A DNA stretch of 46,041 nt from positions 1-46,041 of IMG/VR virus record IMGVR_UViG_3300031951_009861; one strand, written 5' to 3'. The notes below the pieces were generated by a model, which was not told the origin of the DNA, ran no database searches, and saw only the letters and a list, made by a program, of their open reading frames with translations. Position numbers and translations under genes: made by a program. Below are positions 17,302 through 45,307 of this stretch, in pieces. The DNA is from a virus. Position 1 is the stretch's first letter; every line of letters begins with the position of its first letter.

Positions 17302-17373
17302 GCCCTTATAGCTCAGTGGTAGAGCAACTCACTAGTAATGAGTAGGTCGTTGGTTCAAATCCGACTGAGGGCT
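17302..17373 (+). tRNA. tRNA-Thr (AGT)
   Basis: Acceptor GCCCTTA/TGAGGGC, stem ACTCA/TGAGT, loop CTAGTAA. The anticodon starts with A, which is rare in bacteria outside Arg(ACG); it would read ACT, and more codons if deaminated to inosine. Confidence 0.88.
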
Positions 17374-17447: not shown

Positions 17448-17521
17448 ATCCATGTAGCCCAATTGGAAGAGGCAATAGACTAAGGATCTATTTGTTGGAG
17501 GTTCGAGTCCTCTCATGGATA
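17448..17521 (+). tRNA. tRNA with AAG anticodon, class I body (Leu by anticodon)
   Basis: Acceptor ATCCATG/CATGGAT, stem ATAGA/TCTAT, loop CTAAGGA, variable loop only TTGTT. AAG would read the Leu codon CTT, but bacterial leucine tRNAs have a long variable arm, absent here. Charging identity is uncertain. Confidence 0.75.
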
Positions 17522-17525
17522 CCAT

Positions 17526-18309: not shown

Positions 18310-18338
18310 TTGACAACCGAACAATTTTCTGATACTAT
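18310..18338 (+). promoter_or_regulatory. Sigma70-type promoter for tmRNA
   Basis: TTGACA (18310-18315), 17-bp spacer, TACTAT (18333-18338). It begins one base after tRNA-Ser and predicts a start near 18345, just before the acceptor half of the tmRNA. Confidence 0.75.
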
Positions 18339-18344
18339 ATACTA

Positions 18345-18584
18345 TGTTCAAGAGGATGCAAATTCTGTTGCTTCGGACTGGGGTTCGACTCCCCACAACT
18401 CCATTGCAAGGGGTTGCCAAGGTTTCGACGGGGTAGTAAGGTTGTATCTGTTGACGGGACAAAAAACAAACGCAAACAACATCGTTGCATTCTCTCGCAG
18501 TAAGTCTACTGCCCTAGTTTAGAGAGACGGGGTGATAACAGCCCTGTAAAGAAAGTGTTACGAGCAGTGAAATGCTGCTATCAT
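18345..18584 (+). ncRNA. ssrA: Circularly permuted (two-piece) tmRNA
   Basis: tmRNA rescues stalled ribosomes and tags the unfinished peptide. The 3' half comes first: GGATGC, TTCGGAC, T arm TGGGG TTCGACT CCCCA (18379-18395), acceptor strand CAACTCC (18396-18402), A73. After six spacer bases (ttgcaa) the 5' half starts with GGGGTTG (18410-18416), which pairs fully with CAACTCC, followed by GGTTTCGACGGGG. TTGTATC (18442-18448) pairs with GATGCAA (18355-18361) to form helix P2. The tag starts at GCA 18472 and reads ANNIVAFSRSKSTALV, stop TAG at 18520-18522. A hairpin AGCAG/CTGCT (about 18563-18579) ends the coding piece. The permuted order matches marine cyanobacterial tmRNA; no CCA is encoded. 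Confidence 0.9.
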
Positions 18585-18659
18585 TGTGGGGAAGTGTAAC
18601 GGTTGCACAGAAGTCTCATAAGCTTCAGGAAGGAGGTTCAATTCCTCCCCCCGCCACCA
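18585..18659 (+). tRNA. tRNA with CAT anticodon (Met), mismatched first pair
   Basis: Acceptor TGTGGGG/CCCCGCC with a T-C mismatch at 1-72, D arm GTGT/GCAC, stem GAAGT/GCTTC, loop CTCATAA, T arm GGAGG TTCAATT CCTCC, A73 and encoded CCA. The open 1-72 pair is an initiator feature, but the anticodon stem lacks the three G-C pairs of initiators. Confidence 0.8.
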
Positions 18660-18662
18660 AAT

Positions 18663-18739
18663 GCCGTTGGTAGTCTAGTGGTCAGGACACCCCGACAAGG
18701 GAGTTAGAGAAGTAGGGGTTCGATTCCCCCACAACGGCA
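18663..18739 (+). pseudogene. Degenerate tRNA
   Basis: GCCGTTG/CAACGGC ends, a D arm GTC TAGTGGTCAG GAC and a T loop TTCGATT are clear. The anticodon arm has lost bases (CCC GACAA GGG, no T33) and the T stem has an A-C mismatch. It resembles a tRNA whose loop once carried GAC (Val) or similar. Probably non-functional. Confidence 0.5.
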
Positions 18740-19069: not shown

Positions 19070-19287
19070 CTTGAGAATTTCGACGGAAGTTCTCTGGGTG
19101 TGACAGAATAACTCCTGTGGTTATGTACGGAGTAATGTAGTAGGTTAGGGGTGGTGCCCGCTGTATCGTTGAGAAATCAAAGGTATAGAACTCTCTACCT
19201 GAGAGAACCTAAGTACTGGGAATAACGTTAGGCTAGTGAAACCTTCCCGGTTGTGAGTAAAGCCAATTCTCACCCCCCACCCCTAAC
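19070..19287 (+). ncRNA. Structured 218-nt spacer, possible small RNA (B)
   Basis: No protein or tRNA. A perfect 11-bp long-range stem GTTAGGGGTGG (19144-19154) / CCACCCCTAAC (19277-19287) closes a branched domain ending exactly at tRNA-Val. Inside are CTCTC/GAGAG (19191-19205) and an 8-bp stem ACTGGGAA/TTCCCGGT (19215-19251). Upstream are a 9-bp hairpin closed by loop GACG (19073-19094) and ACTCC/GGAGT (19111-19133). CAAAGGTATAGAAC precedes the CTCTC hairpin, echoing spacer A. Looks like a folded RNA gene of unknown class. Confidence 0.5.
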
Positions 19288-19391: not shown

Positions 19392-19928
19392 ATGGAAAAA
19401 CTTTTTAAACTATTGAGTGATGCTCAGGCATCACTTTTTGTCTTATTCCATAAGACCTGGGCCTATCATTGGAATGTAGTAGGAGAAGATTTTCCACAAC
19501 TTCATACCCTTTTTGGTGGTCAATATGAAACAATGTTTGAAGAAATTGATCGCATCTCTGAACATATGAGGTTCTTAAATGTAAAACCTCTTAACAGTCT
19601 AGAGAGAGTTTTAGAAGTATCAAAAGTCAAAACGGGTCAAAGTACAACAGATTGCCATAAGATGGTTAAAGATCTGTTAAAATCAAATCAAGATCTTTGT
19701 GATCTTCTTACTGAAGTTGCTGAAGAAGCTGATGAACAGAAGTCAAGAGCAACTTCAAATCTTGCAGATGATCTAAACGAATCTCATGGTAAATTTGTTT
19801 GGATGTTGAGGTCTTATTTGGAGTCTTCTCCTGGATTAAAAGAAGAAGTAAATGAGATTGAAGAGTTAGAAGATGAAATTGTAGAAGAAACTACAGAAGA
19901 AATAGTAGAGGAACCTACCGAAGATTGA
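19392..19928 (+). CDS. dps: Dps-like ferritin-family protein
   Basis: 178 residues. Dps proteins form 12-mer shells that oxidise and store iron with peroxide and can coat DNA. The first helix pair carries HKTWAYHWNVVGEDFPQLHTLF and EEIDRISEHMR, the Dps ferroxidase pattern (His...His-Trp...Asp/Glu). A helical body and a strongly acidic Glu-rich tail (last ~30 residues) follow, unlike the usual basic DNA-binding tail. Iron or peroxide handling during infection fits the peroxiredoxin and ferredoxin further right. Late promoter upstream. Confidence 0.85.
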   Translation: MEKLFKLLSDAQASLFVLFHKTWAYHWNVVGEDFPQLHTLFGGQYETMFEEIDRISEHMRFLNVKPLNSLERVLEVSKVKTGQSTTDCHKMVKDLLKSNQDLCDLLTEVAEEADEQKSRATSNLADDLNESHGKFVWMLRSYLESSPGLKEEVNEIEELEDEIVEETTEEIVEEPTED

Positions 19929-22746: not shown

Positions 22747-24045
22747 ATGAATAAGAATAAAACTTTTTGCATGGCTCCTTGGGTTCATATGAACATCAAT
22801 CCTAATGGTGATGTATATCCATGTTGTCTATTGCCCATATGTGAAAGTGATACAAGTATTGATGGTCAAGAAGATAATGTATATGAACAAGAAAATCCAT
22901 TAAAGTATATTGCTTCTGAATGCGAAGGTCATCCTAGAGATTTTCGTGTTGGTTCATTGATGAATGAGTCTCTTCAGGAGATTTGGAACAATGATAAGAT
23001 GCGAGAACTTCGTAGAAATATGATGGCAGGAAAAAAATCCAGTTTCTGCACATCTTGTTATAAAGAAGAAGAAGTTGGACATTCTTCTTTGAGAAATACT
23101 ATGAATAATAATTATTCAAAACATTATAAGTATGTCAAAGAAACTAAAGAGGATGGTACTTTTGAAAGGTTCAATCTTGTATATTGGGATTTTAGATTAA
23201 ACAATATCTGTAACTTTAAATGCAGAATGTGCGGTCCTGGTTGCAGTAGTGCCTGGGAACAAGAAATGAGAAAAGAATTTGATATTAAGGGGGAGTTTCC
23301 AAAAATTGATATGGACATGGTTCGTCATGATATTGAACCATTGTATGATATTGTTGAAGAAGTATATTTTGCCGGTGGAGAACCTCTAATTGCTGATCAC
23401 CACTACGAAATATTGAACAAACTAATCGAAAAAGGTAAGACTAATGTTCCTATTCGATATAATACCAACTTCAGTACTCTCATATATAAAGGGACTAATG
23501 TTCTTGATTTGTGGGATAAATTTGAAGACGTTCATATTATGATTAGTTTGGATGGAATTGGAAAAAGAGGTGAGTTAATCCGTAAAGGATTTGATTGGCA
23601 AAAGTTTCTAAATAACTTCAAACTTTTTAGAAGTAGATTTCCTCATAATAATGTGAGAATTAATTTTGTTGTTCAGGCAATGAACTGTTTCCATGTTATG
23701 GATGCTCATAAAGAGCTTTACCTCAGAGGAATAATTAAGAGTTGGGATGAATTTTCTTTGTGTATTTTGCATAATCCAGATTTCATGTCAGTTCTTATTC
23801 TTGATTCTAAGTCAAGAAAACTACTTGGAGAAAAGATTAAATATCATATAGAAAATTATCTTGTACCAGCAAAGGCACAAGAATCAATTAAACAATACAT
23901 ATCGATTCTTAAACTTTTATCTACAGATAAGAAAGATAATCTAATTCCGCATTTTAAAGCTTATATGTCTGCACTAGATAGTATACGGAATGAAAATTCT
24001 TTAGAAGTTTTTCCTGAATTAGAGAGAGTTCTGGGCAATGATTGA
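22747..24045 (+). CDS. Radical SAM protein with N-terminal SPASM/twitch-like domain
   Basis: 432 residues. The radical SAM 4Fe-4S motif CNFKCRMC places Cys at 155, 159 and 162. The N-terminal ~110 residues hold FCMAPWVHMNINPNGDVYPCC and a second Cys pair (CTSCY), which look like an auxiliary-cluster (SPASM/twitch) domain. That domain normally sits after, not before, the SAM core. AGGEPLI supplies the SAM-binding GGE motif. Such enzymes modify peptides or sugars by radical chemistry; the substrate is unknown. The next gene is a full-length paralogue starting inside this one's stop. Confidence 0.85.
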   Translation: MNKNKTFCMAPWVHMNINPNGDVYPCCLLPICESDTSIDGQEDNVYEQENPLKYIASECEGHPRDFRVGSLMNESLQEIWNNDKMRELRRNMMAGKKSSFCTSCYKEEEVGHSSLRNTMNNNYSKHYKYVKETKEDGTFERFNLVYWDFRLNNICNFKCRMCGPGCSSAWEQEMRKEFDIKGEFPKIDMDMVRHDIEPLYDIVEEVYFAGGEPLIADHHYEILNKLIEKGKTNVPIRYNTNFSTLIYKGTNVLDLWDKFEDVHIMISLDGIGKRGELIRKGFDWQKFLNNFKLFRSRFPHNNVRINFVVQAMNCFHVMDAHKELYLRGIIKSWDEFSLCILHNPDFMSVLILDSKSRKLLGEKIKYHIENYLVPAKAQESIKQYISILKLLSTDKKDNLIPHFKAYMSALDSIRNENSLEVFPELERVLGND

Positions 24046-25279
24046 TACAAGTAGAATTAATGTAAACGGTAAAGTTTTTTGTGTTGCACCTTGGATGAAT
24101 CTAGATATTCGTCAAGATGGTGAAGTGAAGCCTTGTTGTGTTTCTGAATATCTTTATGGAGATATCAAACAAAAATCTTTATGGGAAATTTGGAATGATG
24201 ATCCCATAAAGAAACTTAGAGAAAACATGCTTAATGGAGTACCTCATAAAAATTGTGAGGTATGTTATGTTAATGAAAAGGCTGGAAAGAGTTCCCTCAG
24301 ACAAGACTTAAATGGTAGTTTGTTTAGAGATTATCCTGAATTTGTTTATAAAACAAATGATGATTACTCAGTTACAGAACCTGGATTTGTTCAATGGGAT
24401 GTAAAACTGAGTAGTAAATGTAACTTCAAGTGTAGGATGTGTAGTGTAACCTCCAGTTCTAGTTTTGAATTAGAACAAACTGGTAAGATTTCTGGAAGGT
24501 GGAACGCATCTGAGAAAGCATATGAAGAAGTAGAACCTTATCTAGGTGTTGCTAAACATTTATATTTCTCTGGTGGAGAATCATTAATCATAGATGAACA
24601 TTGGAAAATCTTAGACAAATTAGTTGAACTAGGTAAAAATGATGAAGTTACTCTTGCTTATAATAGTAACTTTAGTAATCTAATTTATAAAGGAAGACAT
24701 ATTTTCGATTTGTGGGATAAGTTTAATAACGCTGTAGAAGTGCATATAAGTGTTGATGGTGTAGGAAAAAGAGGTGAATTGATTAGGAAAGGATTTAAGT
24801 GGGACAGGTTTCTTTCACATGCAAAACAATTTAGAGAAAGATTCAAAGATAAGGAACATACTCATGAATTGCATTTTGATTGTACAGTCCAAGCATTGAA
24901 TATTTTTGATGTTGTTACATTACATCAATATCTTTATAATAGTGGACTAATGAAGAATATTGATTACTTCTTCTTAAATTTCATGCAAGGTCCAAGAGAA
25001 ATGACTGTTTGGGTATTGGATAAAAAAACCAAACAAGCTGCAAAAGAAAATATTAGAAATCATATTGATAATTTCTTAATACCGAATGGATCTACTAGGA
25101 GTGTAATTTTCTTTGAAAGTCTAATAACTTACATAGATTTGTACCAAGAACAATTATTGATACCAGATTTCTTAAGATCGATGAGAAAGTTTGATAAATT
25201 AAGAAATGAAAGTGTTATAGAAACATTCCCAGAATTCCAACGAATATGGGATGCAATAAAAATCAGAAAGGCCCCTTGA
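24038..25279 (+). CDS. Radical SAM protein, paralogue of the upstream gene
   Basis: 413 residues with the same order: FCVAPWMNLDIRQDGEVKPCC at the N-terminus, CEVCY, then CNFKCRMC with Cys at 128, 132 and 135, and the SAM motif SGGESLI. The conserved stretches DLWDKF, GKRGELIRKGF and LIYKG are shared almost word for word with its neighbour, so it arose by duplication. Overlaps it by 8 nt, implying equal production and perhaps a heterodimer (inference). Confidence 0.85.
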   Translation: MIDTSRINVNGKVFCVAPWMNLDIRQDGEVKPCCVSEYLYGDIKQKSLWEIWNDDPIKKLRENMLNGVPHKNCEVCYVNEKAGKSSLRQDLNGSLFRDYPEFVYKTNDDYSVTEPGFVQWDVKLSSKCNFKCRMCSVTSSSSFELEQTGKISGRWNASEKAYEEVEPYLGVAKHLYFSGGESLIIDEHWKILDKLVELGKNDEVTLAYNSNFSNLIYKGRHIFDLWDKFNNAVEVHISVDGVGKRGELIRKGFKWDRFLSHAKQFRERFKDKEHTHELHFDCTVQALNIFDVVTLHQYLYNSGLMKNIDYFFLNFMQGPREMTVWVLDKKTKQAAKENIRNHIDNFLIPNGSTRSVIFFESLITYIDLYQEQLLIPDFLRSMRKFDKLRNESVIETFPEFQRIWDAIKIRKAP

Positions 25280-25564: not shown

Positions 25565-25636
25565 GGGACTGTCGCCTATTGGTTAAGGCCCACTGCTTAT
25601 AACGGTGTGAACAGAGTTCAATTCTCTGCAGTCCTA
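25565..25636 (+). tRNA. tRNA-Ile (TAT)
   Basis: Acceptor GGGACTG/CAGTCCT (G-T first pair), stem CACTG/CGGTG, loop CTTATAA, A73. A TAT anticodon for ATA is rare in bacteria, which use a lysidine-modified CAT instead. Confidence 0.9.
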
Positions 25637-25639
25637 CTT

Positions 25640-26531: not shown

Positions 26532-26661
26532 GTGGTGGAGTCAATGACCCATTCTGACCCCGTTGGTAAGGGTCTTTAAATATGCCAACTGGTGCGGAGC
26601 ATCTGCAACGGTTTCCTATTTTTCCGTTCGTCAAAAAGAATAGGTGGCGAGCCTGAGTTAC

Positions 26662-45147: not shown

Positions 45148-45307
45148 ACAAATGTTACGAAACCAAAAGTTCTCGTAACATTGTCGAACTCCCACTAACC
45201 GAGACCTATGGGGAGTATAAAAACGTCTCTCATATCCTGCCTGAGGGTGGCGGGAACATAGTATCACCACCATTTCCCTGATGGTCCTACTATTTTTAAA
45301 AAAAACA
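45148..45307 (+). promoter_or_regulatory. psbA leader, structured
   Basis: 160 nt without a gene. Hairpins: TGTTACG/CGTAACA (45153-45180), ACTCCC/GGGAGT (45188-45216), CCTGCC/GGCGGG (about 45237-45255) and ACCAT/ATGGT (45269-45285). The run of A before the ATG may aid translation. Possible post-transcriptional control of psbA, inferred only from folding potential. Confidence 0.45.

Follow-up and report, generated by a model that had tools for sequence, protein, structure and literature searches.

tmRNA is a bacterial RNA that releases stalled ribosomes and marks their incomplete proteins for degradation. Permuted tmRNAs have already been reported in aquatic phages, in a study that counts 53 two-piece tmRNAs in phages (50 of these aquatic) and places the phage genes with the cyanobacterial lineage (PMC9004378). 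Thus, the gene described here by itself adds one more member to a known kind. The Methylophilales phage Melnitz, a lytic marine myophage, likewise encodes a permuted tmRNA, which is of the alphaproteobacterial type with a glutamine riboswitch, unlike the present one (PMC9004378). Mycobacteriophage DS6A also encodes a tmRNA that is presumed to use the host SmpB; however, this molecule consists of the tRNA domain only and has no tag frame, and an inhibitory effect has been reported for a similar molecule (PMC4131195). Altered tag ends are known from the engineered ssrA variants AAV and ASV, in which a C-terminal Val replaces Ala as in the phage tags, and which are weaker degradation tags in Synechocystis (LVA > AAV > ASV; PMC3446811). 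These are man-made fusions, whereas the phage tags are a natural rewriting. The comparison of cyanophage tag ends given below adds to these accounts, as the passages of PMC9004378 consulted hold no comparison of tag C-termini and no earlier report of cyanophage tag ends was found in the open-access literature.

The stretch of DNA analyzed here (the window, 46,041 nucleotides in full) is a viral contig with more than 25 tRNA genes. A preliminary description had proposed that it carries a phage-encoded, circularly permuted tmRNA of the cyanobacterial type, with a covariance-model search as one of the checks. This search (cmscan, Rfam) gave a full-length match to RF01851 (cyano_tmRNA) at 18329–18579 (116.6 bits, E 4.7e-31, model 1–288) and a match to RF04321 (tmRNA_permuted) at 18354–18503 (80.1 bits, E 7e-14, model 1–213), both exceeding the gathering scores of 70 and 47 bits, respectively. 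ARAGORN independently called a permuted tmRNA with the tag ANNIVAFSRSKSTALV*. The proposal is therefore borne out, and the pieces lie where they had been placed, with A73 at 18403, TTGCAA at 18404–18409, G1 at 18410 and the tag at 18472–18519. The acceptor piece precedes the coding piece, the 7-bp acceptor stem spans the break, and the resume codon, the tag frame and the stop are all present. The features are as follows.

18310–18338, + strand: sigma70-type promoter, TTGACA (18310–18315), 17-nt spacer and TACTAT (18333–18338); promoter scan 10/12; directly 3′ of tRNA-Ser
18354–18403, + strand: acceptor (3′) piece, comprising the P2 3′ strand, TTCGGAC, T arm, acceptor 3′ strand and A73 (RF04321 start, covariation)
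18379–18395, + strand: T stem-loop TGGGG-TTCGACT-CCCCA (covariation in 76 phage sequences)
18396–18402, + strand: acceptor stem 3′ strand CAACTCC, positions 66–72, U70 at 18400 (7/7 pairs with 18410–18416)
18403, + strand: discriminator A73, end of the acceptor piece
18404–18409, + strand: intervening segment TTGCAA, six bases, no encoded CCA (sequence)
18410 to about 18580, + strand: coding (5′) piece, G1 to about the last hairpin (the RF01851 match stops at 18579, the next tRNA match starts at 18585)
18410–18416, + strand: acceptor stem 5′ strand GGGGTTG, G3 at 18412 (acceptor pairing)
18421–18433, + strand: GGTTTCGACGGGG signature, D-loop-like region and start of P2 (sequence; RF01851 and RF04321 alignments)
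18472–18519, + strand: tag frame with resume codon GCA, ANNIVAFSRSKSTALV, stop TAG at 18520–18522 (ARAGORN, translation)
18523–18579, + strand: downstream pseudoknot and hairpin region of the coding piece (RF01851 alignment, with a poorer fit to the model here)
18585–18656, + strand: tRNA with anticodon CAT, directly 3′ of the tmRNA (RF00005, 48.8 bits)

The acceptor strands GGGGTTG and CAACTCC had been described as exactly complementary. They do pair, but exact complementarity is rejected, since the third pair is a G3.U70 wobble, the alanine identity element, and only the other six are Watson-Crick. The promoter, described earlier as a dedicated one, is upheld; elements similar to its −35 and −10 precede the tmRNA, with small variations, in relatives that have other neighbors on the upstream side. 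tRNA-processing enzymes are predicted to excise the TTGCAA segment between the pieces, and an RNase P cut of the downstream tRNA-CAT could set the 3′ end of the coding piece. In comparison with the ssrA genes of Prochlorococcus and Synechococcus (RF01851/RF04321), the window gene shares the permutation, the G3.U70 acceptor pairing, the T arm, P2, GGTTTCGACGG and the tag core ANNIVxFSR. However, the phage tag ends in ALV and the host tag in PVAA, the residues after SR are changed, the phage pseudoknot region is shorter, and the phage genes group apart.

Scans with DNA patterns taken from the tRNA domain and from the tag core, which favor sequences similar to the query, gave sets of 109 unique cyano-type phage tmRNA genes and of 112 genes from Prochlorococcus, Synechococcus and Cyanobium genomes (among the matches listed). 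The type of tmRNA and, in part, the isolates served to assign the viral contigs to cyanophages. Among the matches listed, all seven acceptor pairs are kept in 101/101 parsed phage genes with compensatory changes, the pair 5:68 occurring as GC, CG, AU and UA, and G3.U70 is invariant in these 101 genes and in 112/112 host sequences; the acceptor register was picked for best pairing, which biases toward pairing generally and not toward G.U at 3:70. The preliminary description had named lost acceptor pairing in relatives as a refuting outcome, and the kept pairs speak against such a refutation. In a set of 76 different phage sequences, the pairs of the acceptor stem and of the T stem are always formed (100%), and both strands vary in the former and at all five pairs in the latter. 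The P2 helix noted in the preliminary description is also upheld: P2a is 90.6% paired, four of its pairs having changed on both strands, and P2b is weaker (67.5%), whereas slid controls for the stems gave 28–77%. Minimum-free-energy folding of the locus, a method that ignores pseudoknots and the two-piece form, gave no support (z −1.25). Among 46 distinct core sequences from phages, most variation in the tag core is synonymous, a pattern that speaks for translation of the tag frame. Together, the covariation of the acceptor stem, T stem and P2a and the synonymous core variation mark this as a maintained tmRNA.

For E. coli ClpXP, no part of the ssrA degron matters more than the terminal Ala-Ala, and a change of either Ala raises the KM (PMC7652416). 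The window tag ends in Leu-Val, departing from this canonical end. Comparisons among the matches listed showed that Ala-Ala ends the tag in 112/112 picocyanobacterial genes, in 56/60 other viral permuted tmRNAs (mostly of the proteobacterial type by their tags) and in 60 of 69 sequences of a cyanobacteria-wide sample (VA in 8, AC in 1). By comparison, only 26 of the 109 cyano-type phage genes end in Ala-Ala; the other ends are TA (40), AV, TV and LV (12 each) and a few others, again among the matches listed. Both controls being mostly AA, neither phage status nor the cyanobacterial tmRNA type alone suffices to account for the phage ends. Val-terminal tags occur in 36/109 phage genes and in none of the hosts, and tag length ranges over 14–32 residues in phages versus 16–18 in hosts (among the matches listed). 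The suggestion of the preliminary description that the RNA could steer tagging is favored by these altered C-termini. Fisher tests on the tag-end counts gave very small p-values but ignore relatedness, and weight was therefore placed on the tree and on a matched-distance comparison. Phage pairs at matched tRNA-domain distance share the last two residues in mostly 12–35% of cases (61% for near-identical pairs), whereas cyanobacteria-wide pairs share them in 73–89%, even at larger tRNA-domain distances. Thus, divergence is not the cause of the tag-end difference. Each of the 61 distinct phage tags has A, V or L as its last residue, although these three together make up 19% of the residues in the window proteins. 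This indicates that the tag end is still constrained and does not look like decay.

Cultured phages show the same variety. The tag ends in TDELVTA in S-SSM7 (host WH8109), in TRELATA in Sf-FS3 (host WH8102), in AVSCA in S-CBWM1 (host CBW1002) and in SLVAAL in S-CRM01 (host LC16), and Ala-Ala is kept in S-CAM1 and S-CAM3 (STVAA). The tmRNA is not annotated in any of the annotated phage records inspected. GenBank hypothetical proteins overlie it in S-CAM3 (L158, 1485–1625) and S-SSM7 (L489, 1243–1461), and these proteins are probably spurious.

Trees were built with the tag masked, using quick searches and about 206–210 columns. The tag-masked tree places the phage genes on one side and the picocyanobacterial genes on the other side of one branch with a support of 100. 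On this tree, at least 12 changes occurred between AA and other ends and at least 25 in the terminal dipeptide. With one-piece cyanobacterial tmRNAs as the outgroup, the picocyanobacterial hosts form one clade, and monophyly of the phage genes is not rejected (p-AU 0.682). The position of the phage genes apart from the sampled hosts points to a phage-borne lineage that is old relative to those hosts. A capture from a host had been proposed as the origin; a recent capture, or host contamination of the viral contigs, is rejected as the source of the phage genes for the sampled sequences, given this separate grouping and the presence of the gene in isolates.

The surroundings of the tmRNA gene are those of a cyanophage. 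The closest annotated matches of the window are Synechococcus phages, and the window also encodes baseplate or tail-fibre-like and tail-lysozyme proteins, 6-phosphogluconate dehydrogenase, a sugar epimerase and, inside the tRNA array, an HNH endonuclease. The RNA motifs manA, wcaG and PhotoRC-II, whose cyanophage association is known (PMC2864571), were all found in the window (cmscan, Rfam). The manA motif (100 bits, 19076–19283) sits in the tRNA array, flanked by tRNA-Gly and tRNA-Val, and is followed downstream by a ferritin-like gene (19392–19928). The wcaG motif (26554–26658) is just above threshold and overlaps the start of an epimerase gene at 26644, and the PhotoRC-II motif (45176–45269) is near the contig end. 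Two tandem overlapping radical SAM proteins are encoded at 22747–25279, in which, contrary to the usual order, the SPASM match precedes the radical SAM domain on the N-terminal side. In the tRNA array, the tRNA-CAT following the tmRNA has an encoded CCA and was matched by Rfam and missed by ARAGORN, and the segment at 18664–18738, called by neither the Rfam search nor ARAGORN, looks like a further atypical tRNA. ARAGORN also reported anticodons unusual for bacteria in tRNA-Thr(AGT) (17302–17373), tRNA-Leu(AAG) (17448–17524) and tRNA-Ile(TAT) (25565–25637).

The two tmRNA pieces of the window are separated by the six-base spacer only, with no intervening tRNA. A complete tRNA gene lies between the acceptor and coding pieces in 13 relatives among the matches listed, being Tyr(GTA) in nine (L359, L360, L367, L392, L406, L212, L236, L242 and L226) and Asn(GTT) in four (L390, L225, L237 and L261). 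The two tRNA identities suggest more than one insertion. An intervening tRNA, if transcribed, requires cuts on both sides, which supports two-piece maturation in the phage lineage. No report of a tRNA between tmRNA halves was found in the open-access literature. In another relative (L270, 5560–5760), a second tmRNA acceptor piece lies ~740 bases upstream of the intact gene and runs into a tRNA-like sequence apparently without a D arm, resembling a tmRNA-tRNA recombinant. L306 shows the same two pattern matches.

With moderate confidence, we interpret the locus as a working two-piece cyanobacterial-type tmRNA of an old phage-borne lineage that would rescue ribosomes together with the host SmpB and carry a weakened or retuned degron. 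Neither SmpB nor ClpP was found in the tmRNA-bearing phage records searched, and host factors must therefore serve. We infer that the system is expressed, processed and active in rescue with reduced proteolysis. The RNA would be transcribed from its own promoter within the tRNA array, and host tRNA-processing enzymes would cut the precursor into the acceptor and coding pieces. CCA would then be added to the acceptor piece and alanine loaded via G3.U70. After binding of the host SmpB, the phage tmRNA would free ribosomes held up on truncated mRNAs. Infection by cyanophage P-SSP7 induces RNase E (PMC10989914); this induction may raise the number of truncated mRNAs, and a tie to the tmRNA is conceivable. 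The phage tag keeps the N-terminal core ANNIVAFSR but has Leu-Val in place of the Ala-Ala read by ClpX. Compared with a protein bearing the host tag, one that bears the phage tag is predicted to be broken down at a lower rate or through a different route.

Other readings differ in what they make of the tag end. The phage RNA may be a plain supplement that provides extra rescue capacity, with its tagged products degraded by host proteases about as well as those of the host, if cyanobacterial ClpX or another protease accepts -LV, -TV and -TA ends. The small or aliphatic C-terminus of every phage tag, the AA ends kept in 26/109 phage genes (among the matches listed) and the few cyanobacteria that themselves end in -VA are consistent with this; most of the cyanobacteria-wide exceptions are of the -VA kind, showing that some tolerance exists. 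However, AA is near-fixed in hosts and not in phages at matched divergence, and the ClpX of two picocyanobacteria retains the GYVGED, TRDV and RKH segments, whose residues contact Ala-Ala (PMC7652416). As Val-terminal variants are also weaker degrons than LVA in Synechocystis (PMC3446811), we regard a plain supplement as unlikely, though worth keeping in view. Retargeting, in which the phage tags are tuned to another protease, adaptor or kinetics rather than to stabilization, is distinctly improbable in our estimate: no candidate protease or adaptor was found, and there is no ClpP in the phage records searched. It is nevertheless a live rival given the A/V/L ends of all distinct tags, and the recurring ends -ELATA, -ELVTA, -LATV and -SLV/-ALV/-TLV and the in-frame tag extensions up to 32 residues look selected, not random.

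The constraint on the tag end bears in the opposite direction on relaxed selection, under which the RNA would be a passenger in the tRNA array with a drifting tag. The tag C-terminus does evolve fast, and a stop codon alone suffices for ribosome release, but the strict conservation of the acceptor stem, T stem and G3.U70, the constrained tag core, the restriction of the C-terminus to A/V/L and the recurrence of the promoter in relatives make such drift very improbable. Even less credence is given to a decoy role, in which the phage RNA would tie up SmpB and thereby stop trans-translation in the host, the mode of action reported for DS6A's tRNA-domain-only molecule. A decoy would need neither the full coding piece nor the constrained tag frame that the phage genes keep, although the lack of SmpB in the phage records searched and the inhibition of tmRNA by a DS6A-like molecule (PMC4131195; PMC11915505) fit with it.

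Beyond a maintained phage tmRNA with a weakened or retuned degron, we tentatively put forward a further step: that cyanophage tmRNA tags have been repeatedly re-coded to give rescue without normal ClpXP degradation, so that both halves of trans-translation would be naturally uncoupled in infection. About a quarter of the phage genes keep Ala-Ala (among the matches listed), and the tag change is thus not universal. Among isolates with named hosts, S-SSM7, Sf-FS3 and S-CRM01 with altered tags beside S-CAM1 with Ala-Ala provide a built-in contrast. Phage tmRNAs have so far been counted; the altered tag end makes their role testable, as to whether rescue is kept and degradation is weakened or redirected.
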